A DNA stretch of 17,496 bases, taken from NCBI GenBank assembly GCA_036939355.1, contig JALLAP010003410.1, forward strand, positions 1-17,496, given 5' to 3'. This document shows, piece after piece, positions 671-17,400 of the stretch (the first letter of the stretch is position 1; the number at the start of each line of letters is the position of its first letter). Made by a program: the position numbers and the translations under genes. The notes under the pieces are model-generated. The model saw only the letters and a program-made list of their open reading frames with translations, was not told where the DNA came from and searched no databases. The stretch is from Thalassiosira profunda. Taxonomy: Eukaryota; Bacillariophyta; Thalassiosirophyceae; Thalassiosirales; Thalassiosiraceae.

Positions 671-2316
671 ATGGCGCAGAAAAAGAAGCCCGCCAAGCCT
701 CCGCCCCCGGCGAGCAACGGTGCAGGTGCTGAGTCTCCATCGACGCCGTCCAATGCAGCGCTGCTCCCGAGCATCGTCGTCGCGATTATTGCATTCCTCG
801 GAGGAGTGCTTACCCCTCCTTCGTTGCACGCCTACCGATCAGCTACAAGCGCAAGGTGAATAGATTTGTGTGATGCGTTGCACTGTATGTAGAGTAGTGT
901 CAAAAGGTGCACCTTCTCACATGCACCCGCTTGCTTCGACGTGCTGCAATTATTGCAACAGCAACCCCAGCGATTCCTTTCCGCTCCCGCGGCACACCGT
1001 CCCATGCACGCCATCAAACCTTGACAATTACCTCCACGTCAAACCGATCCCGGGCCTGCACCTGATATGCATCGAGCAACTGTCTGTGGGCGAGGATGGA
1101 AAGGAGCAGGCGTTGCCCCCCACCTCGGATACAAACGAGCAACGCCGAAGGCTGGGGCAGATCGACTCGTTGCGATTCACAATCTACAAGGGATCACACT
1201 CGGGACCGCTCCGTCGTCGCATCAAGGTGGGGGGTGGATCGCAAGGAGTGCAATCCATCGCGTGGCCGGAGGTGAAGCTGCAATTGATACGAGAACTAGG
1301 TCTGACGCCCGAGGGAAAGCTGCAACAACCCTGGGCGCTCTTCACTGCTTTGGGAGAACGGATCGTGGGAGAAAACGACAATGTCGTGGGGAAAGGGGGC
1401 GGTGAGGTTGGATCCAACCAACAAGTCATGGCGAGCATCGCAGCGTCGGGAATGGTCGTCATCGCCCAAGGGGGGAATTGGGTGTGGCCGGGAGTGAGGC
1501 AAGGATTCGAACGAACCATCGAGCTGGCGCCAATGGACGACACCACTGGAAAATCTGTGGAGCCGCGCAATATCACAATTGAAACTCTTTCGATGGTGCC
1601 ACTCGTGTTGAGCATCAAGGGGTTTTTGACTGAGGATGAGTGCGATCATATTGCTGAGAAGGCGGGGCCATCGATGCGGTATAGCAGCGTGTCGCTAAAA
1701 GATGCCGACAAGGGCAGGGCCGCCAGCGACTGGAGAACGTCTCAATCCACTTTCCTCTCGTCCAAGGACGATCCGGTGTTGAGGGCCATCGAGGATCGCA
1801 CGGCCAGTCTCACGCGCGTGCCCCGGAACCACCAGGAGTACGTGCAAGTGCTCCGCTATGGAACAGATGAGAAATACGACGCCCACCACGTGAGTTTTGA
1901 TTTGAATGTCATAGCAGCTCATAGCATATGTACTAACTTCGTACCGCTTCGATGTTATGAAGGACTACTTCGATCCAAAGGCGTACCAGTCGGACGAGAA
2001 TACGCTGCGCCTCATTGAGAACGGCAAAAAGAATCGCTTCGCAACGGTGTTCTGGTATCTGACAGACGTAGACGACGGCGGCCACACGATCTTCCCGCGC
2101 GCCGGGGGACGCCCGCCGGTGCGGAGCCACAAGGATTGCACGAAGGGTTTGAAGGTGCAGCCGCAAAAGGGCAAGGTAATAATCTTTTACAGCCTGGACG
2201 CGGCCGGGGCCATGGACGAGTATTCGCTCCACGGAGCGTGTCCCGTCGGAGAGGGCAACGTCAAATGGGCCGCTAACAAATGGATTTGGAACGCTCCGAT
2301 GGGATATGTCACTTAG
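671..2316 (+). CDS. Prolyl 4-hydroxylase, type II membrane protein (3 exons)
   Basis: Predicted 2-oxoglutarate/Fe(II) dioxygenase that hydroxylates proline in secretory proteins such as wall or matrix glycoproteins, in the ER/Golgi lumen. Exons: 671-855, 962-1889, 1963-2316 (488 residues). The ATG at 671 has A at -3 and G at +4. A Lys-rich head (residues 4-9) and a hydrophobic stretch at about 31-47 form a signal anchor. Residues about 63-225 are a less conserved segment ending in a GNWVWPGVRQGF block, which as I recall is shared with algal hydroxylases. The catalytic domain starts near ETLSMVPLVLSIKGFLTEDE. Iron ligands are H370 and D372 (YDAHHDYF) and H461 (SLHGACPV); K472 should bind 2-oxoglutarate. 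The HxD motif is split by the second intron. Family assignment is firm; substrate is unknown. The first splice acceptor is ambiguous (961 or 970, both in frame). Confidence 0.9.
856..961 (+). other. Intron 1 of the prolyl 4-hydroxylase gene
   Basis: The first exon frame ends in TGA at 857-859, right after a donor GTGAAT at 856. A CAG at 959-961 is followed by the in-frame second exon. A second CAG at 968-970 is also in frame and would remove three residues (N-P-S). Without the intron, the membrane anchor would be cut off from the hydroxylase. Confidence 0.7.
1890..1962 (+). other. Intron 2 of the prolyl 4-hydroxylase gene, TACTAAC branch site
   Basis: The donor GTGAGT is at 1890 and the acceptor AG at 1961-1962, giving a 73-base phase-0 intron. 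It contains TACTAAC at 1931-1937, identical to the classical yeast branch-point consensus and 25 bases before the acceptor. Removal joins DAHH to DYFDP and creates the HxD iron-binding motif. Confidence 0.85.
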
Positions 2317-2972: not shown

Positions 2973-5900
2973 ATGAGCCTCGCCCGCCTCCTCGCGGAGG
3001 AGACGCAGCTCTGCCCGGCCCCCCTCCTCGACCCGGCCGTCCTCGCCTCCTGCCAGGCGTGGGAGGCCGAGAAGGCCAGCAACTACGATTGCAGCAACGA
3101 TCCCCACCTCCAAGCCCTCACGCCCGGCAAGCACGCCGGCGTCGAGGCGAGCTACCTCAGCTTCAACACCGCCCAGTCCACCGGGCACTTTGTGGATCGG
3201 GCCAAGCTCTTCGAGCAGTGCACCGGCGGCGTCATCAACTTCGCCGAGGCGACCGACATCGCCGAGGATCCCATCACCGACATCGGCTCGGCCTCCTCCA
3301 TCGGCGCCGAGCTGTATGATGCCTACCTCATGATCTACTCCTTTACCTCGGAGGCGTCGAGCCTCGGCCTCCTCGAGAACCTCAACGACCGCATCAAGGA
3401 GTCCAACACCCTGCTGCGCTACGAGGATTTGTTCCCCAAGGTCCGAAGCATGGGGGAATACCGCAAGGACGGCAAGACCAACGTGGACCTCCTCATGGCC
3501 GACGGCGACTTCTTCGTCCCCATCGTCCGCATCGACCTCCTCGAAAAATTCGACCTCCCCCTCCCCCACACGTGGGAGGACCTCGTCGAGACGGCCCGCT
3601 TCTTCAACGGGACCGACCTCAACGACGACGGCGATCCCAACGATTTCGGATTCTGCATCTACCCCCGCACCGGCTCCGGGTTTAACGACGCGTGGATCCC
3701 CGAGCTCATGTACTCGACGTGGGCGACGACCGACCAGACCAAGGGCATCCAGGAGGGATTCCTGTTCGACGACGAAACCTTCGAGCCGCGCATCGGGGCC
3801 GGGTTCGAGAATGCCATGGACGTGTGGAAGGATTTGTGGCCCAATTCCGCCGACGGGTGCATCACCCCCACCTTCGTGTCGGGGCGGTGCGCCATCGGGC
3901 TGGCGCCCCCGGGATGCTGGAAGGGCACCTTCGTCAATTCCAAGGAGGGGGGCGTGGCGTGGCGCAACATGGAGACGTGGGAGGTGCTGACGGACGAAAA
4001 CGGGGAGGCGTTGTGGCGGCCGACGATGAAGGACGGGAGCTACGCCGAGCCGTACCGGATGCGCCCTTTCGGGAGTTTGAAGGTAGTGAACGAGGACGAT
4101 CAGTTGGTGCCGTGCACGCCCGAGACGTGCCCCAAGGGTGAGTTGTGGTTTGAAGGAATGAGGGTTATTTGGGGGGAGATGCTTGTGGGCACACAAGATG
4201 CACCTGCATTCTAACCATTCCACTCTCATTTTGTTTCCACATCCAGGCGAACGCATCCAAAAGTCGGCCGACCTTCCCGCCAACGACCGCGCGAGGATCC
4301 TCAAGGACTCCCCCCACGCCGGACAAATCATCAACCGCGTCCCCTTTTATTGGTCTGGGGGATACGGAACGGGCATTAGGAAGTCCGCAGACGACGCCCA
4401 GAAGGACCTCATGTGGGATTTCTTCGTCTACGTCAACAGCCCCACCACCTCCGTCGACGACGTCGTCATCCCCTCCTGGCTCGACGCGTGGCGGAACAGC
4501 CAGTTGAGCGACTGCGACGGCGTCCTCGCCGCCGGGACGTGGAACGATCCCAACGCCACCCAGACGTGCAACTTCCGCGAGGGAGGATGGTCCGAGGTCA
4601 CCTTCCGCGAGCACAAGCGCACCATGGACTGGGCGCTGGGGAACGAGGTCAATAGTGCCTTGACCCTGCGCCTTCCCGGCGTCCTCGGGTACACCCGCGA
4701 GGTCCTGTTGCCCAAGTTCTTGCGCTACATGGATGGGAAGATTTCGATGGAGGACCTGAAGCAGTCCACGATCGACGGGTGGAACGACGTCACCGCCTCG
4801 CGGGGGAAGCTGACCCAGCTCGAGATCTACCGGGCGAGTCTGTCCAGGGATCCTCTGTCGCAGTATGAAATGTGTCAGTTGCACCGCGAGGAGATGGACA
4901 AAGAGGACCCCTCAATTTGCGCCCAGTACGACCCGAAGGAGGAGGAGAGCAACGACAATGCCAAGTTGTTGGTTGCTGTTCTAGTGCCCGTTTGTGTCGT
5001 GGTGCTGGCGGCCATCCTGGGCGTCTGGATGTACCACGAGAGGAAGCGCCGACAGGCCGATGCCATCTGGAAGATCGACAAGAACGAATTGAAGTTTGAC
5101 GATCCTCCTGAGGTTGCCGGCAGAGGAACGTTCGGTGAGTACAACCAGTTGCCTGGCATTGTTGATGCCCCTCACCGCCATATGCTCATGTTTGCTCATC
5201 TACCTTGTGTGCGTAGGGTTGGTGGTCAAGGCCGAATATCGTGGAACGACGGTGGCGGTGAAGCGCGTCATCCCTCCCAAAGAAAGGGCCAATCGGGCTG
5301 CGAGCTTCCTGGAAGAGGAGAATCCCAACGCGGGAACGGAGTCTGGTATCGCAACGGGCGTGCCACAGGACCCCAAGAATGGGAAGAAGCCAGGAGTGCC
5401 GCGCCACGCCAGCACGACGGGCAGCATGACGAGCAGCATGGTCAGCATGGATCGTATCTTCGAGGCGAAGGACTCCAAGGGCTCGGACAACGTGGAAGAA
5501 GCCACTCCTGACCTTGAGGCCGGGCCACCCGTCCACCACAACATCTACAGCTCGGTTGAGACTGGAGTGACTGCCGTGTCCAGCAAGAACCACAGTGGAA
5601 GCCTCGAAGGAGCCTCCTCGCGCGGCGCGTCCAAGGCGAAGTGGAAGCGCTGGTTTGGCTACAGCAGTAGCACCGGGGGCAAGAATTACGAGCAACTCAA
5701 GCAGGAATTCATCGTCGAAATGCGCGTTCTTTCCAAGCTCCGCCATCCCTGCATTACCACGGTAAGTTGCCCGGTGGTAGCCAAGGAACTTCATTTTTTT
5801 ACTCCTGCTGTTTCTAAGCTCTTCACACTCGTTGTGTAGGTTATGGGTTGCGTCATCGACAGCAAAGAGGAGCCAATGTTGGTGATGGAGTTCATGGCGT

Positions 5901-7147
5901 ACGGCTCCCTCTACGACCTTCTCCACAACCAGTCCCTCTCCATCGATGGCGAGCTCATCTCGCCCATCCTGCAGGACGTCGCTCGCGGGGCACGGTTCCT
6001 CCACGCTGCTGACCCCAAGATCATCCACGGTGACCTGAAAGCGGCCAACGTCTTGGTGGATGGACGGTTCCGTGCCAAGATCAGCGACTTCGGCCTCTCG
6101 GCCAAGAAGAAGTACCTTGGCGCCTGCGGTACTCCCTATTGGATGGCGCCGGAGCTCCTTCGTAGGGAGTCGACGAACACCCCGGAGTCTGACGTGTACT
6201 CCTTCGGCATCATCCTGTACGAGCTCTATTCGCGGCAGGATCCGTATGAGGGGGAGAATCCCGCCACCGTGCTCGACGAGATCTGCGACAAGAAGATCAA
6301 TAAGCGCCCTCCCGTCCCGGAGCATTGCCCTGCCAAGATCGCCGAGATCATGAATGAGTGCGTTGACGGCAACCCGGAGAAACGTCCTACCTTTGAGGAA
6401 ATCGATCTTCGCATCCAGCGGCTCGATTCCGAGAATGTTGATCCTGGAGAGATCACTTTCGGCCACCGTCTTCTGGACAGCAGCTACAGGAGGAGGCGGG
6501 CTTCCAACGAGGAGGATCTCATCAACCAAGTGTTCCCGAAGCACGTTGCCAAGGCTCTGCTGCAGGGTCGCAAGGTGGAGCCGGACCGTGTGGAGATGGC
6601 AACCATGTTCTTCTCCGATATTGTTGGGTTCACTTCGATTTCCAGCAAAATGACTCCCGAAGAGGTGTCGGACATGTTGGATCGCCTGTACCTCAAGTTC
6701 GACGCGCTCTCCGAGAAGCACGACGTGTTCAAGATTGAGACCATTGGCGATGCCTACGTCGGAGTGTGCAACCTCGTCAAAAATCAGGAGGGGGACCACG
6801 CGAAGCGCATTGCCGAGTTTGCCATTGACACCATCAAGGCCGCGGGAGAAACGTTCATCCTCCCGGACGATCCTTCGATGGGCACCGTCAAGATCCGCAT
6901 CGGAGTCCACTGCGGTCCGCTCGTGGCGCGCGTCGTCGGGTCTCGGAATCCTCGCTACTGCGTTTTTGGGGATACTGTCAACACCACCGCGCGGATGGAG
7001 AGCAACTCGCTGTCCATGCGGATCCAGTGCTCGGACAGGGCCGCGGAAGTGTTGAAGAAGCAGGCGCCGGAGCTGCCTCTGGAATCGCGCGGAGTGATTC
7101 ATATCAAAGGAAAAGGAGAGATGAGCACATTCTTCCTGTCGAAGTAA
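2973..7147 (+). CDS. Receptor-like guanylate cyclase: solute-binding ectodomain, TM helix, protein kinase, cyclase (4 exons)
   Basis: Predicted membrane receptor that makes cGMP and may phosphorylate proteins. Exons: 2973-4137, 4247-5134, 5217-5761, 5840-7147 (1301 residues). Residues about 50-600 resemble family 1 extracellular sugar-binding proteins of ABC importers: LPLPHTWEDLVETARFFNG, then LNDDGDPNDFGF, then FVSGRCAIGLAPPGCW. N212 and N491 lie in N-glycosylation sequons. A transmembrane helix spans about 628-652, followed by HERKRRQ. The kinase has GRGTFG (680-685), K700 in VAVK, E852, HGDLKAANVL (D931), DFG (D949) and GTPYWMAPE, plus an extra insert of roughly 130 residues, Ser/Gly-rich and charged, between K700 and E852. 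A short signalling helix leads to the class III cyclase: metal ligands D1126 and D1170; guanine-specifying E1166 and C1240 (RYCVFGDTVN); NTTAR catalytic motif. The first in-frame ATG is 2973, but no signal peptide follows it, so a 5' exon may be missing. Confidence 0.88.
4138..4246 (+). other. Intron 1 of the receptor cyclase gene
   Basis: The donor GTGAGT is at 4138. The acceptor is CAG at 4244-4246, preceded by a pyrimidine-rich tract (CATTTTGTTTCCACATC). The phase-1 join restores a Gly codon and links the two halves of the solute-binding domain. Confidence 0.85.
5135..5216 (+). other. Intron 2 of the receptor cyclase gene, inside the glycine-rich loop
   Basis: The donor GTGAGT is at 5135 and the acceptor TAG at 5214-5216. 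The phase-1 join completes the last Gly of GRGTFG and continues into LVVKAEYRGTTVAVK, so the kinase ATP loop exists only after splicing. Confidence 0.87.
5762..5839 (+). other. Intron 3 of the receptor cyclase gene
   Basis: The donor GTAAGT is at 5762 and the acceptor TAG at 5837-5839, phase 0, 78 bases. Splicing joins LRHPCITT to VMGCVIDS, a normal kinase transition from the C-helix to beta strand 4. The intron interior is T-rich near the 3' half. Confidence 0.87.
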
Positions 7148-10569: not shown

Positions 10570-12166
10570 TTAGCCCGTCTTCAACTTCTTCGCCGCCGGC
10601 CCCTCCGCTCCCTGCCCCGGAAACCAGTCCGGTCTCACCAGCGCCCCTTCCTCTCCTCCGCCCTTCTTCTTCTCGTCCTCCTCCTCCACATCAAGCCCCT
10701 CCAGGGCAAGCGCGTCAACTAAGGCCTCCTTCCGCTTCTTCAAACCGTCGAGAATCTCCTCCATGTTGGTCTTTCCCTCTCCGCCCTCCTCTCCGTCGCC
10801 GCAGAAGGCCCGCGCCGCCTCCATCGAGCCAAAGTCGCACCGCGACGCCAGCAGGAGCTGGAGGCAGCGCAACCGCGCCTGCCGCTGCTTCCGGATCGAC
10901 TCCCGGTACGCCTGGAGCGACCGCCGGGCGTGAGGAATGTCGATATCGAGGACCTCGTCGGGGAGCTTCGACAGCGCCTCCGGATCGGACAGCAATTCTG
11001 CCACGTTGGCCGTTGCTCCCTCCTTCCCCGTGCCCTTTTGCTGCGCGAGGACTTTGTCGCACGCCTCCTCCACCTCGGCCGGGACGCTTGCCAGCGCCGA
11101 GGACAGGTTCATGGCCGCGTCGCTCCCGATGTCGCGGGCGATCTGGATCGAGGCGATGACCTTGCACGCGTCGAGGAATTGGGACGGCTCGACCTTGGCC
11201 TCCTCGACGCCCTCGAAGTCCACTTCCACTTCTGGCAGGGAGGCCACGCTGTCCCTTTTGGATGCGGGTGCGCTCGCCTTGCTACCGTCGTCTTCTGCGG
11301 CCGAGGAGGGAGTGGGCGTAGCATCGACTGCCTCTTTCGTTTCGGGCTTTTCTTCTTTTGCATCCGTCGATGTTTCAGCAGCTGCCTCTGCTTCGTCTTC
11401 AGCTTTGTCAGCTCCAGCACTCGCCGCATCAGGGGGTGCCTCCTTCTCTCCCTTCTCCACTGCGGCAGTTTCCGGAGCCTTTTCTGTTTCAGCCTCAGCC
11501 TCGGCTGGCGCCTCCTCCTTCGCCCCCTTCCCTCCTCCCTCCTCGGCGCCCTTCAACGCCCGGTTCCACCCCCTCCGATACTCGTCCACCACCGTCGGCC
11601 CCCCGAACACATTGCGCTCCTTCCACTCCTCGAGCATCCCCNCCCCTCCGATACTCGTCCACCACCGTCGGCCCCCCGAACACATTGCGCTCCTTCCACT
11701 CCTCGAGCATCCCCCGCACCTCCTCGGCGTGCTTCTCCTGTGTGGCCCCGTCCACTTTGGCCAAGGATGAAGCGAGCGCCTTCCACAACGGCTCGACGGC
11801 CGCCTCCCCCAACGTCACTCGCAATGGCGCCGACTTCTCCCACTTGTCGACGTCCCCCTCCGCCCCCGCCGTGGGACAATTCGCCATTAGCGCCCGGTGC
11901 AAAATCCTCAGCAGTAACATCAACCGCGCCGTCCCCCCATCGTCTCCGGCCGATGCGGCCGCCTCGTCAATGGCCACGACCAACCCCTCCCCCATCCCCT
12001 CCGCCTTCTTGCGGTTGAACACCATCCACCCCGCGACGGTCTGGAGGGAGTCGGGGGAGGCGCTGCTGCTGAGGGCCGCGAGCTTTTGGAGCAATTTGCG
12101 CGCGTGGAGGGAGGGCTGCGGCTTGGCGGCCGCGGGCTTGGCGGGCGGGGCGGCGTCGCTGGACAT
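10570..12166 (-). CDS. RPRD1/Rtt103-like CTD-interacting-domain protein (interrupted by assembly artefact)
   Basis: Nuclear protein predicted to bind the phosphorylated C-terminal repeats of RNA polymerase II and act in transcription termination or CTD dephosphorylation. The ATG is at 12166 and TAA at 10570. Residues about 18-170 are a CID domain: SLHARKLLQKLAAL, SLQTVAGWMVFNRKKAEGM, ARLMLLLRILHRALM and the diagnostic MLEEWKERNVFGGPTVVDEY (153-172). Then come a long acidic Glu/Ala/Lys linker and a C-terminal helical region (about ACKVIASIQIARDIG to LEGLDVEEEDEKKKGGG), as in RPRD proteins, which dimerise through a coiled coil. It ends PDWFPGQGAEGPAAKKLKTG, with a basic tail. The frame is broken at 11642 by an N flanked by a 72-base duplication. 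Dropping 73 bases gives one continuous frame of about 507 codons, so this is not a pseudogene. Confidence 0.83.
11570..11714. repeat. 72-base exact repeat around a single N: assembly overlap artefact
   Basis: Bases 11570-11641 and 11643-11714 are identical, separated by N at 11642. The offset of 73 shifts the reading frame of the CID gene by one. Removing one copy and the N restores it exactly. The same length recurs at 15295-15439, which points to contig ends with a fixed overlap rather than a genomic tandem repeat. Confidence 0.92.
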
Positions 12167-12269
12167 GATGGTGAAGGCAGGCGCCAGGAAGGGTGTGGGG
12201 CGGGGGTGGCTGGTGGATTTAGGGGGGGATTCATGCCGTAGGCGGGGGTCCCCCGCGTCGCCGCACCTT

Positions 12270-12329
12270 CTAACAAAAGGCACTAGCTTTGCGTCTGCCC
12301 CCAGCGGGGCTTTGTTAGGATGAAGCTAG
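12270..12329. repeat. Interleaved complementary words (pseudoknot-like order)
   Basis: CTAACAAA (12270-12277) pairs with TTTGTTAG (12311-12318), and CTAGCTT (12283-12289) pairs with AAGCTAG (12323-12329). The order A-B-A'-B' cannot form nested hairpins but could form a pseudoknot if transcribed. It lies upstream of the CID start codon on the minus strand. The words are short, so chance is a real alternative. Confidence 0.35.
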
Positions 12330-12621: not shown

Positions 12622-12654
12622 CGAAATTGATCAACCAGAAGTGGCCTCCTCATT

Positions 12655-14184
12655 ATGATCTCGCGCGCCTCGTTGTCGCTGGCGATGAGGGCGAGGCCGA
12701 CGGGCGCCTGCGCGCGCTGCCGCCGCCCCGGCACTGCAATGGCACCGGCCTGCCATCCATTATTGCAATCACAAAACAACATGATGTCAACACCACATTG
12801 CAGACAGCTCAGCACACGCATCGATCCGCAGCGGGAGGGAGGAGGGTCGGAGAAGGAAGCGATGAGCAACCGAGCCGCGTTCAAGAACACGCCCATCATC
12901 CCATCGATACTCGCGCACATTGAAAAGATTGGCGTCGGCATCCGGAGCAAGCCGAAACGCCGACGGAGGCCGCGAACTGCCGAAGGCGAGGGCGGTGCAT
13001 CAGGCAGGGGCAGGTCGAGAAGGGGAGACACGTTGGACGAGTCCGAGGAATTGGAATACTTCGCCGAGAGCGATCGGAGGCATCGAGTGCAGAGGCAAAG
13101 CAAACGCGGCGCCGAGGACAGGGGCCGGAGGTCGGCCGGGGGCACCAGAAAGGGCAGCCGGGACGACGACAAAGCGCCACCGGGACGAACCGGCCTGCAC
13201 TGGCTCCCGCCCCCGCCCTTCTCGTCCTTCTCGCGGGCCGAGGAGCGGGACGAGCTGGGCCGCCATATCGTCCGCCGGCCCGTCAAACTCATCGGCAAAG
13301 CGGGCACCCTGAACGACAAATTGCCCCGCGAGAGCAAGGGTCTGGCCGAGGTGGCCATCGCGGGCCGATCGAACGTGGGCAAATCCACCCTTCTGAACGC
13401 GCTGCTATACGGGAACATCGACGAAACGCTGGCCCCGCGGGAATATCGGCGGGGACGGACGCCGGAGGGCGCCAAGCTCCCGCGAGGGGTGAAGGCGATC
13501 ACGTCGGATCGGCCGGGGGAGACGCGCGAGCTGAGCTTTTACCAGCTCTCGGCCGATGTCGCGGAGGAAGGCCAGAAAGAGAAGGCGAAGATGTCCCTCC
13601 TCATGGTCGACCTGCCCGGCTACGGCTTTGCGTACGCCAAGGACGAGCGCCGGACGGAGTGGAGGGATCTGATGCACCACTACCTCCTGGAAAGGCGGAG
13701 CTTGAAGCGGATTTTGCTGCTGTTGGACGCCCGGCATGGCTTCAAAAAGGCCGACTTTGACTTCCTGGGCGAGATGCAGGACGGGCTGTTGGCCAAGATG
13801 GACGATGACAACAGAAAGGTAGGCAGTCTCACTTGATTGGCTTAAGTGTGACATTCACTCTGTGCGCACAAACTCACTCCTTCTCTCCCTACACGACGAC
13901 GGCAGACGGCGAAGCGCGAGCTGCCCCCCATCCAACTCGTACTGACAAAGTGCGACCTCGTGAAGCAGCCCGACCTCGCCCGCCGCGTCGTCGTGGTGCG
14001 GGAACAGCTGTCCGACTTTCTGATCCGCGAGCCGTCGTCCCTTCCCGTGATGCTCGTGAGCGCCCGCGCGGGGTTGGGGTTCAACAACGTCCGGGGCGAG
14101 ACGCCGTTGGGGGGCGTGCTGGAATTGCAGCGGGAGCTGGCGTCGCTGGTGCCCGCGCCGAGGGCCCACGAACGGAGGAAGTGA
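12655..14184 (+). CDS. EngB/YihA-type ribosome-assembly GTPase, probably mitochondrial (2 exons)
   Basis: GTP-binding protein of the TrmE-Era-EngA-EngB-Septin class. In bacteria EngB acts in large ribosomal subunit assembly; here it probably serves an organelle ribosome. Exons 12655-13818 and 13906-14184 (480 residues). G1 GRSNVGKS (237-244), G2 region TSDRPGETRELSFY, G3 DLPGYG (from D319), G4 TKCD (402-405, after the intron) and G5 VSAR (SA 440-441). The first about 58 residues are rich in Arg/Ser/Ala/Cys, lack acidic residues until D57 and end CRQLSTRIDPQ, like a mitochondrial presequence. No signal peptide of the kind needed for a complex plastid is seen. Odd points: a 235-residue extension before G1 (bacterial EngB is about 200 residues in total), with basic and acidic low-complexity stretches, and a roughly 20-residue insert between G1 and G2. 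Family assignment is firm, location inferred. Confidence 0.9.
13819..13905 (+). other. Intron of the EngB gene
   Basis: The donor GTAGGC is at 13819 and the acceptor CAG at 13903-13905, 87 bases, phase 0. A pyrimidine-rich tract (CTCACTCCTTCTCTCCCTAC) precedes the acceptor. Splicing joins DDDNRK to TAKRELPPIQLVLTKCD, supplying the G4 motif. Confidence 0.87.
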
Positions 14185-14561: not shown

Positions 14562-16083
14562 TTAGACAGGGATGAAGTCCTCACGAGCAGGTCCATCCTG
14601 CGCATCCGGACCGCCGGCTGCGTCGGTGGCGACCGTCGGCGTGGATCCGGAGGTGGGCTCCGGGGACGGAGCCGGGGTTTCGATCTCTGCAAACTCAGAC
14701 GGGGCCGGGGTGGTCGGGAACGGAGTGGGCACAGGCGTAACGACGATCTCCGCAATGGGCCTCGGAGTGGGCCTCGGCGTCTCGAGTTCGTCCTCCGTGG
14801 GCCCAGGAGTGGGCGACCGCGTGGGCTTCGGCGTGGGCGCAGGCGTCGGCATGGGGGTGGGGCAAAGGTCCACGACATTGCCGTCCCCGCGGCAATCAAT
14901 GCCGTTGCTACTGTCGTCGCAGCACGCAGACTCGCTTTCGTACTCAATGCACGTGGGCTCGCCCATCGACATGCTCATGAAGGTGTAATCCTCGCAGCCA
15001 GCGTTGCAGTCGGCGAAGACGCACTTCCCTTCGATGGCGAGCCAAATGCGATCATCGTCGTCGCAGTCACAGTCGTTGCAGACGGAGGGAGCGCCGCTCT
15101 TGCCACCCTTGGAGCCGGACTTGCCACCCTTGCCGCCGCCGCTGCCACTCTTGCCTGACTTGCCGCTCCAAGAACCGTAGCTCATGGATGTGCTCCAGGC
15201 GCCGGACCAGGAGCCGGACTTTCCGGACTTGCCGTTGCCGGACTTTCCTGACTTGCCGCTTCCCTTGCCCGACTTGCCCGGGGAGAGGTCGCAGATGCCG
15301 GGACTGTAGGTCGCGCAGGACTTGGCCCCCTTGCTGCCGGAGCCCTTGGATCCCTTGCTGGAGTAGNATGCCGGGACTGTAGGTCGCGCAGGACTTGGCC
15401 CCCTTGCTGCCGGAGCCCTTGGATCCCTTGCTGGAGTAGGACATGTCGCTCTTGCCGGACTTGGAGCCGGATCCCTTGGAGGACTTGGAGTAGGACATGG
15501 AGTAGTCGCTGTCCGCGGGGGCTTCTTCCATGTCGGCGTAGACCTCTGTCGTGGAGTGGAAGGACGGGCAAGGGGCAACGGCTAGGGGGTCAGCAACAGC
15601 AACAACAGGACGGCACACAACTAACAATGGCAACGTTGCAACTCAATAGATCTCAACATAGGAACCCCAAGCACAGAACTCACTCCGCTGCTGCTGCTCG
15701 GTCCGGAGCTGGGCCCGCTTCCCGGCCTCGACGCCGGCGGCGTACTCCTCCGTCCCGGGCACGACGAGGCGGCGCCGGTAGGGAATAGTGGAGGCCTCCT
15801 TCTCCTCGTCCTCCTCGCCGTAGGACATACTGCTGCTCTTGCCCCCCTTCGATCCGCTCTTCCCGCTCTTTCCTCCGCCGCCGCTGCTCTTGGCGGCCTT
15901 CGAGTAAGCGGGGGCGACCTCCTCGCACTCCTCGTCGACCCCGCCCATGTCCGCGTAGCCGTAGGCCTGGGACGCGGAGGCGTTCCGCTTTTGGGATTGC
16001 GTCACCCCGACGGCCACGCCGATGACGATGGCGAGGGCGGCGAGGGCGGCGACGCCGACCTTCATGTACTTCTTCTCGACCAT
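14562..16083 (-). CDS. Ser-Gly-Lys-repeat single-pass membrane protein with Cys-rich module and Pro-Thr tail (2 exons)
   Basis: No enzyme family recognised. The ATG is at 16083; exons 16083-15684 and 15545-14562 on the minus strand. Allowing for the 73-base artefact at 15367, it encodes about 436 residues. MVEKKYMK plus a hydrophobic run (about 8-27) forms a signal anchor. YADM motifs recur before each repeat region (YGYADMGGV and VYADMEEA). Two blocks of SGK/GSK units follow, with KSGKSG and KGSGSK spacing that places lysines about three residues apart. Next is a Cys-rich, Asp-rich module (VCNDCDCDDDDRIW to GIDCRGDG, about 10 Cys), then PTPMPTPAPTPKPT-type repeats to the C-terminus. Such Lys-Ser-Gly and Pro-Thr composition is frequent in diatom surface proteins, and lysine-spaced Ser-rich proteins are linked to silica deposition in diatoms. 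A wall or surface role is inference. The Pro-rich tail could be a hydroxylation or glycosylation target. Confidence 0.75.
15295..15439. repeat. 72-base exact repeat around a single N: second assembly overlap artefact
   Basis: Bases 15295-15366 and 15368-15439 are identical with N at 15367 between them. The duplication falls inside the SGK-coding region and shifts the frame by one. Dropping 73 bases restores continuity with the downstream Cys-rich and Pro-Thr part. The length matches the artefact at 11570-11714 exactly. Confidence 0.92.
15546..15683 (-). other. Intron of the SGK-rich protein gene
   Basis: On the minus strand the donor GTGAGT starts at 15683 and the acceptor CAG ends at 15546, giving a 138-base phase-1 intron. 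Splicing joins TEQQQR to a Lys codon and VYADMEEAP. Without it the first exon ends eight codons later in SYVEIY and a stop. Another acceptor nearby cannot be excluded, but this one keeps the frame into the repeat region. Confidence 0.7.
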
Positions 16084-17400
16084 GGTTGCGGGATGGGTTG
16101 GGGGTGGGGGTGTTGTCCTGTTGGGGAAATTGTGAAGGGGCGGTGCGGTGGCTGGCCTGGTCGAGTCGGGCAACAGGAAGGGAGATGGCGTGTGTGATGT
16201 GTTGGGGATTTGATTTGGCTTCGACAGCCGTCCGAAGGCTTTCAAATTCACTCCAACCAACGGCTACATTTTTCTGCGTCGGAATTGGTAATAAAAGATA
16301 CGACTGCGACTTCGGGAGGAGACTTTCTTGCATTGCATTCAAAGTGAATAAAATAACGGCCACCAAGCGGAGTGTACAACAACGTGGGAATTCGTACTTT
16401 GAGTTTGGAGAGTGACAAGCACCTTTCGAATGAATGCGAACGAAAGACCAACGAATTATGGGAGAAGGTGGTTCAATTCGTCCGTTCAGGACGAAACGTC
16501 GTATCACAACCAGGTACTATCTATTCCTTCGTGAATTGGCCGTTTCTACAAGTTATCTACCTCTGATACGTCGTAAATATCGTATGTAGGAGATTCTGCG
16601 CCGCCTTGTGCAAACTCAACCACCCCCGGCAAATGGGCAGAAAGCAAAAGGACACTCTCTTCTGAAACCTTATCCAACATCAGAAGGCAGCAAGCAAGCC
16701 GCACATGCCGCCAGCTGATCATGGAGCTCCTCGTGGAAATTGATGAATAGGGAGAGACAAAGCAATACAGCCCCGAGAGAGAGCGCGGGGAGCAGAGAGA
16801 TGTCCAATTAAAACCTGTGGCGCGCTGCTCATATCCTGAAAATAAAGATCCGCCAGAAAGATACATACCTACCTACTGTCTGCAACCACCTTGACATTAT
16901 CAAACTTCGTCAACCCACAGCATCACGCCTGCGCAAGTGGCTTTTCTTGTTTTCTTTTTGTTTTCTGTGCGTTCATCGCTCTCACTCTCAGCATTCCGAG
17001 TCCGTTGTTTTGTACATATTATTGTAGATATTCATAAGTAGATATTATCTCACCTTCCAGCTCCACTTACTCCTCGCTCACTTGTGCGGCACCCCCTCCT
17101 TGTGTGTGCTCTCCGCTGGTCTTTCAGGTTCACTGGCGACGACGCGATGACAAGAAGCTGGCTCGGGTGGGCACTAAGTATCTTCGTTTGCAAAATATTT
17201 CCTCCTGTGGTATCATACCTAGGGATAAGGATACTATCTTCGTTTCATAAAAAACGCACCCCGGAAGAAGTTGTGAGAGGCCACTTCTTACCATACTAAA
17301 TTTACTCCTTAGAGAGAAAAGATCCAAGCCATCAAAAAATCAGAAAATCAGAAGGCGGTCGTCGAGCACACTCGCTCCCACACTTCTACTGCGCCCAACC
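16084..17400. promoter_or_regulatory. Long AT-richer divergent intergenic region
   Basis: About 1.3 kb between the minus-strand SGK-rich gene and the plus-strand gene starting at 17401. Composition turns clearly AT-richer from about 16250. A 106-codon minus frame (16546-16866) and shorter frames lack recognisable features. Visible signals: a T-rich run with repeated TTGTTTTCT-like words (about 16940-16968), two TAGATATT words (about 17025-17050), a 7-base hairpin AAGAAGT/ACTTCTT (17265-17289) and an AAATCAG duplication (about 17337-17350). It probably holds two promoters; a small non-coding RNA cannot be excluded by eye. Confidence 0.5.

Follow-up and report, generated by a model that had tools for sequence, protein, structure and literature searches.

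A diatom receptor guanylate cyclase with a predicted solute-binding ectodomain of bacterial type

Could a bacterial-type solute-binding protein have become the outer part of a eukaryotic receptor that signals through cGMP? The question is raised by a gene of the diatom Thalassiosira profunda that is contained in the window, i.e. the whole stretch of 17,496 nucleotides of contig JALLAP010003410.1 that was analysed. This gene runs on the forward strand from the ATG at 2973 to the TAA at 7145-7147 and, with three GT-AG introns, encodes a protein of 1301 amino acids. We hold with considerable confidence that it is a single-pass receptor guanylate cyclase with a captured family-1 solute-binding outer part of bacterial type, in which solute-driven closure of the lobes would alter both kinase activity and cGMP output. 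A small solute, with a carbohydrate-like compound as the best guess, would most likely bring the two ectodomain lobes together; the conformational change would pass through the single transmembrane (TM) helix to a putative kinase, which has all its catalytic residues and is CTR1-like as judged from its best PDB match, and to a class III cyclase presumably acting as a homodimer. The splicing frame, the domain order, the TM helix, the bacterial homology, the catalytic residues and the conservation of the fusion were all computed, as was, on a relative, the fold of the ectodomain. By sequence comparison, the sensor is assigned to an algal receptor family with one conserved ectodomain.

The ectodomain and its place in the membrane

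It had originally been predicted that the sensor is a family-1 solute-binding domain and not one of the ANF-receptor type. The latter point held: ANF_receptor shows no Pfam match in the window protein at E 1, and a confident structure model of the relative P0010 has a two-lobed fold that matches family-1 solute-binding proteins (SBPs). The assignment to family 1 is supported by this modelled fold and by homology, the ectodomain being homologous over nearly its full length to bacterial proteins that do match PF01547 (SBP_bac_1). Furthermore, the motifs DG (172-173), P-TW (193-196) and DLN-D (210-214) are invariant across an alignment of 17 sequences, of which nine are bacterial. Several observations, however, weigh against this assignment. 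The model is that of P0010, 66% identical to the window protein, and not of the window's own ectodomain. The profile search that had been proposed as a check leaves the window protein without a match to any solute-binding family, even with the threshold relaxed to E 1, and residues 1-660 yield nothing above the Pfam cut-off. Among 34 relatives scanned by Pfam (at least 57 homologs of the window protein were found by protein search), SBP_bac_1 was matched in one (E 9e-4) and SBP_bac_8 in another one, and NCBIfam gave no SBP family for these 34. A phmmer search of the PDB with the window protein returned no more than 5iai (0.013) and, on top, NqrC (0.0011); because the predicted model points to SBPs, the NqrC match was judged to be a chance one. 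The same was concluded for Psg1, which matched over the TM region below the Pfam cut-off (9e-4). With SBP calls so weak or absent in Pfam and NCBIfam, family databases alone would miss this ectodomain. As to the ligand, the predicted role as a sensor of oligosaccharides or other small solutes went no further than the fold neighbours, which suggest a sugar.

The ectodomain may also have lost its ligand binding, serving now as a module for dimerisation or protein-protein contact, with the signal brought by another protein. Such a loss would agree with the poor fit to SBP profiles, with insertions and cysteines that are seen by eye in the eukaryotic rows of the alignment and are missing from the bacterial ones, and with the length of the branch that separates the eukaryotic from the bacterial sequences (2.09 changes per site). 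We nevertheless regard it as unlikely: the fold neighbours are two-lobed, the motifs listed above are invariant, and the ectodomains of the window protein and of the green alga Cymbomonas are 47% identical, as compared to 50% for the kinase core, 55% for the cyclase and 22% for an insert in the kinase. Thus, the constraint on the ectodomain appears, by this comparison, nearly equal to that on the enzyme domains, in line with the reading of a sensor that still binds its solute.

The predicted TM helix was recovered by hydropathy as the one hydrophobic helix of the window protein, at residues 630-648 (4969..5025, forward strand, coordinates derived by hand from the exon map), between the ectodomain and the kinase. 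It is preceded by the acidic stretch DPKEEESNDNAK and followed by the basic ERKRRQ; since, by the positive-inside rule, the basic flank lies on the cytosolic side, the N-terminal domain would be located outside, probably on the cell surface. The N-termini weigh against such a location. Under a crude hydropathy rule, signal-peptide-like N-termini were found in three of the 25 proteins of the window's clade, as against 27 of 37 elsewhere, and the N-terminus of P0004 is likewise without an evident signal peptide. Hence, in 22 proteins of this clade a signal peptide is not evident although the ectodomain is expected outside, so that either the first exon is missing from many gene models or the export is unusual. 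Upstream of the window gene, at 2100-2973, no M-initiated frame of at least 16 residues reaches the hydropathy limit of 2.0. The stretch LSILLVVALSSPASA at ~2800, picked by eye as a candidate signal-peptide exon, was rejected, as it ends in a stop codon with no GT donor before it.

The enzymatic half and the integrity of the gene

Pfam bore out the kinase (PF07714, residues 843-1055, E 7.7e-52) and the class III guanylate cyclase (PF00211, residues 1114-1300, E 5.9e-53) that had been read from motifs. The catalytic domain of the cyclase occupies 6578..7141 on the forward strand (E 1.3e-53), with the motifs FFSDIVGFT, FKIETIGDAY and YCVFGDTVNTTARMES. The window cyclase and all six relatives compared, P0030 not being among them, retain FFSDIVGFT, ETIGDAY and C-FGD-VNT, and the window cyclase carries the glutamate of ETIGDAY and the cysteine of YC-FGD, which we take to be the guanylate-specifying residues. 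Its closest PDB entries are GC-C (2.6e-48) and then NPR1. In the kinase, VAVK, HGDLK and DFG are kept in the window protein as well as in P0001, P0002, P0004, P0014 and P0033, and Cymbomonas has HNDLK in place of HGDLK; the closest PDB entry by sequence, with the exon-4 part as the query, is plant CTR1 (1.2e-35).

How far does this protein resemble the receptor guanylate cyclases of animals, such as NPR1/GC-A and GC-C? It shares with them a binding domain, one TM helix, a kinase-like domain and a class III cyclase, and no cyclase domain in the PDB is closer to that of the window protein than theirs. In animals, however, the ectodomain is of the ANF-receptor type, with a type I periplasmic fold, in place of the family-1 solute-binding fold predicted for the window protein's family. 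The likeness to the animal kinase-homology layout holds for the order of kinase and cyclase and fails for the catalytic residues: the animal kinase-homology domain is devoid of the catalytic Asp, whereas the window kinase keeps HGDLK (929) and DFG (949).

With the catalytic residues of the kinase intact, phosphorylation could be the main output, the cyclase being secondary or regulatory. P0035 and P0064, which carry a kinase and a histidine kinase with no cyclase match (as found by Pfam on P0035), would fit this possibility, and so would P0030, in which the cyclase looks degenerate by eye; yet the retention of the cyclase motifs in the window protein and in the six relatives makes it improbable. 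A receptor with cGMP as an output stays the preferred reading.

Exon 1 (2973..4137, residues 1-388) encodes, in one reading frame, the N-terminus and most of the ectodomain. It is followed by intron 1 (4138..4246, GTGAGT...ATCCAG) and exon 2 (4247..5134), which encodes the remainder of the ectodomain (up to residue ~622), the TM helix and the start of the kinase N-lobe. Intron 2 (5135..5216, GTGAGT...GCGTAG) precedes exon 3 (5217..5761), which continues the kinase N-lobe, including VAVK at residue 697, and contains the poorly conserved insert (residues 701-840). Intron 3 (5762..5839, GTAAGT...GTGTAG) leads to exon 4 (5840..7147), with the kinase core (HGDLK, DFG and, at 968, MAPE), a linker, the cyclase and the stop codon; all of these lie on the forward strand. 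Removal of the three predicted introns yields a single open frame of 1301 residues, and the alignment of the window protein with P0001, P0002, P0004, P0014 and P0033 is gap-free to a distance of 10 residues from each of the three seams, so that the single spliced frame claimed for 2973..7147 was confirmed. The exon 1 region (2973-4142) is 80% identical to P0001. The domain order is identical in P0004 of Detonula, the record of which names the MMETSP project, presumably a transcriptome project. Among the matches listed, the nearest named relatives are diatoms, namely Detonula (P0004), the CCRYP gene model P0015, which we assume to be from Cyclotella cryptica, and Stephanocyclus (P0020).

That a binding-protein gene (exons 1-2) and a kinase-cyclase gene were wrongly joined might be thought of because Pfam detects the kinase-cyclase half only and the splicing of the window gene was read from the sequence. 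This is most improbable: the five relatives aligned across the seams, the MMETSP protein of Detonula among them, are fused with seams at identical residues, and exon 2 alone spans, in one open frame, the binding domain, the TM helix and the glycine loop of the kinase. Bacterial contamination or a chimeric assembly, brought to mind by two joins on this contig (at 11642 and 15367), each a single N between duplicated flanks of 72 bases, is less credible still, as neither join touches the gene, three GT-AG introns interrupt its coding sequence, the named relatives among the top matches are diatoms, and the bacterial homologs are just ~25% identical.

Bacterial relatives, origin and exchange of outputs

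A scan of GTDB species genomes gave 58 bacterial loci. When 53 eukaryotic ectodomains were combined into a profile of 585 positions, this profile matched 41 bacterial genes of the set searched at 3e-56 or better, mostly over positions ~40 to 553. SBP_bac_1 was found well over the cut-off in all four bacterial homologs tested (4.9e-24 to 5.7e-38). NCBIfam, applied to four homologs, gave no match in two and matches far below the cut-off in the other two, so that no substrate can be named. At 37 loci, not including L075 and L076 with their shorter matches, the neighbours were classified by their similarity to six proteins used as queries. At the 21 non-cyanobacterial loci (Chloroflexota, Thermomicrobium, Desulfobacterales and one Armatimonadetes), a MalF/UgpA-like permease gene lies downstream in 16, one (L060) has a HAMP-STAS protein, and four (L039, L045, L063, L073) have no neighbour matching the six queries. 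Each of the 16 cyanobacterial loci (Nostoc, Okeania, Roseofilum and others) has a sensor-like gene downstream on the same strand, within ~2.2 kb. Pfam, run on six of these genes, identified HAMP and histidine-kinase domains in L061 and L067, HAMP-SpoIIE in L070, HAMP-PAS in L049 and HAMP-PAS-GAF in L064 (both truncated where the locus ends), and HisKA-HATPase-receiver with no HAMP match in L058. At six cyanobacterial loci there is, in addition, an opposite-strand gene that weakly resembles permeases (1e-9 to 1e-11); the one tested, at L058, is a BPD_transp_1 permease that adjoins another SBP. It is therefore likely that the family serves import in some bacteria and is a partner of a sensor in cyanobacteria, the pairing being read from gene order alone. 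In the window, Pfam on eight selected open reading frames found no permease, importers not having been searched for in the remaining window or genome.

In the main tree (25 eukaryotic ectodomains chosen from the 53, 41 bacterial and six outgroup ones), the eukaryotic sequences form one group (100/100) on the long branch already mentioned (2.09 changes per site), which does not arise within any of the bacterial subgroups sampled; the tree program warns that long branches meet at the eukaryote-bacteria junction. A smaller tree of 35 rows agrees. Approximately unbiased (AU) tests rejected neither a grouping of eukaryotes with cyanobacteria (p 0.139) nor one with other bacteria (p 0.19). Hence a single origin of the sampled eukaryotic ectodomains is supported by these alignments, a later transfer between algal lineages is possible, and the two trees and two AU tests do not allow the donor to be named. 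For the suggested capture from bacteria, the homology supports a bacterial kinship of the ectodomain but no particular source. The shared domain order, looked for in stramenopiles, was seen in diatom relatives, and the ectodomain is not confined to stramenopiles, as it occurs also in dinoflagellates and in Cymbomonas.

Is the sensor, then, tied to the receptor cyclase architecture? It is not. Three protein searches returned at least 130 proteins, and these, 131 with the window protein, were labelled by the presence of output modules. Kinase plus cyclase was assigned to at least 20, the window protein included, 17 of them with the whole ectodomain; kinase to at least 27, many of the records ending inside the kinase and being possibly truncated; and a HET-like label to at least 23. 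Cyclase plus phosphodiesterase (PDE) was found in at least three, kinase plus histidine kinase and cyclase alone in at least two each, and histidine kinase and a seven-transmembrane (7TM) output in at least one each; among the matches listed, 42 were labelled as ectodomain only or truncated, and 10 received no assignment. Pfam gave kinase, HisKA, HATPase and receiver for P0035, HisKA and HATPase for P0077, cyclase and PDE for P0071, 7tm_3 for P0006, and kinase and cyclase for the Cymbomonas protein P0052; in the 34 relatives scanned, 7tm_3 was matched in two and HET, weakly, in seven.

An output tree was built from 64 eukaryotic and five bacterial ectodomains, 67 of the 131 having been dropped as too short, with little tail, or too divergent (P0129, P0130); four of the 64, with unassigned and probably truncated tails, were excluded from the change counts. 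For five output classes (any kinase, HET-like, 7TM, cyclase-PDE, histidine kinase), eight changes are needed as compared to a possible minimum of four, so the ectodomain, on this tree, has been re-wired repeatedly, i.e. joined to different outputs. The HET-like label alone changes five times, three of these changes being forced by well-supported branches (six times when the records labelled "none" for truncated tails are included), and a set of eight HET-like proteins, P0015 and P0020 included, is the sister (95/81) of the group formed by P0001, P0002 and the window protein. A broader scenario, to which we give even chances, is that one bacterial solute-binding lineage, already a signalling co-sensor there, entered algae and became a plug-in chemoreceptor, probably with a shared ligand class. 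In this scenario, its output partner would have been exchanged time and again among diatoms, dinoflagellates and green algae, the partners being kinase-cyclase, kinase-histidine kinase, histidine kinase alone, cyclase-PDE, 7TM and a cytosolic domain of HET-like type.

The HET-like tail is a cytosolic stretch of ~280 residues (F-SHQW or FFSYHW ... D..SIPQ ... R.E) seen in diatoms and dinoflagellates, e.g. in P0044, P0045, P0048, P0063, P0043, P0059, P0013 and P0016. Pfam HET was matched in two of five members (best 6.2e-4), and a profile search of the PDB gave no convincing relative (best E 0.42). P0130 of Chlamydomonas sp. UWO 241, with SBP_bac_8/SBP_bac_1, Guanylate_cyc and PsbP, is another SBP-cyclase fusion; it is 22% identical to P0052 over half of the searched part of the latter, and its SBP probably falls outside the sampled eukaryotic ectodomain group.

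Known systems and the rest of the genome

Solute-binding-protein ectodomains on eukaryotic receptors are already known, as can be judged from the available parts of two reports, one on diatom (P. tricornutum) class C G-protein-coupled receptors with sugar-transporter-like N-termini (PMC3727952, 2013) and one on SBP_bac_1 in eight glutamate-type receptors of this kind in A. macrogynus (PMC3251606, 2012). The likeness, drawn from the description of the N-termini, is in the ectodomain, and P0006 joins the window's ectodomain family to 7tm_3, as in class C receptors; the difference is in the output, 7TM there and kinase-cyclase here. The receptor adenylate cyclases of Trypanosoma brucei, as described in the accessible part of PMC6027212, resemble the window protein in having a Venus-flytrap ectodomain, one TM helix and a class III cyclase, but have two such flytrap domains and no kinase between the helix and the catalytic domain. 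The guanylate cyclase-PDE (GC-PDE) of Seminavis robusta that responds to the sex-inducing pheromone is also a diatom membrane cyclase; by its description in the available text of PMC4726125 and PMC8027222, it is predicted to have an extracellular stretch and two TM helices, and no solute-binding domain is mentioned there. GC-PDE proteins with the window's ectodomain family are P0071 (whole ectodomain), P0056 and P0054 (both partial), the first two being named Bacillariaceae or Nitzschia. In the cyanobacterial loci, a homologous sensor is encoded upstream of a HAMP sensor gene, but as two separate proteins, with a co-sensor role suggested by gene order. Searches of the open-licence literature brought up no description of the kinase-cyclase form, of one ectodomain shared across outputs, or of the bacterial sensor pairing.

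Diatom cGMP enzymes respond to sex pheromones, according to the accessible parts of PMC4726125, PMC5485032 and PMC8027222, and the inputs that diatoms sense through cGMP are poorly known. A conserved ectodomain of a well-understood fold on several outputs offers one soluble domain for ligand screens and makes the question of which dissolved compounds these algae sense directly testable. Its recurrence on several signalling engines suggests how algae may read dissolved nutrients or signals. It is probably also an instance of a transport protein recruited as a receptor; its relatives in bacteria occur next to transporters as well as next to sensors.

In the genome of T. profunda itself, one full copy of the ectodomain was found. 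A second kinase-cyclase is encoded on the minus strand of L102 (C903:5500-12008), 37-55% identical to P0001 depending on the stretch; it shows no match to the window's ectodomain, and its own ectodomain, with no Pfam assignment, resembles the Cache type by eye. At the end of C793 (L101:4953-5603) there is a partial, different SBP_bac_1/SBP_bac_8 domain (43.6 bits, over the cut-off), cut by the contig end.

Elsewhere in the window, Ser/Lys/Gly-rich frames with SKGSKGSGSKG repeats lie on the minus strand at 14562-16263; two parts tested gave no Pfam match, and by eye they are reminiscent of diatom cell-wall proteins. Pfam also matched a 2OG-Fe(II) oxygenase (1915-2316, forward strand), a CID domain (11495-12325, minus strand) and a 50S-ribosome-binding GTPase (12631-13836, forward strand). 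The single Ns at 11642 and 15367, each with the identical 72 bases on either side, fall inside long minus-strand frames and are probably assembly joins with duplicated ends.

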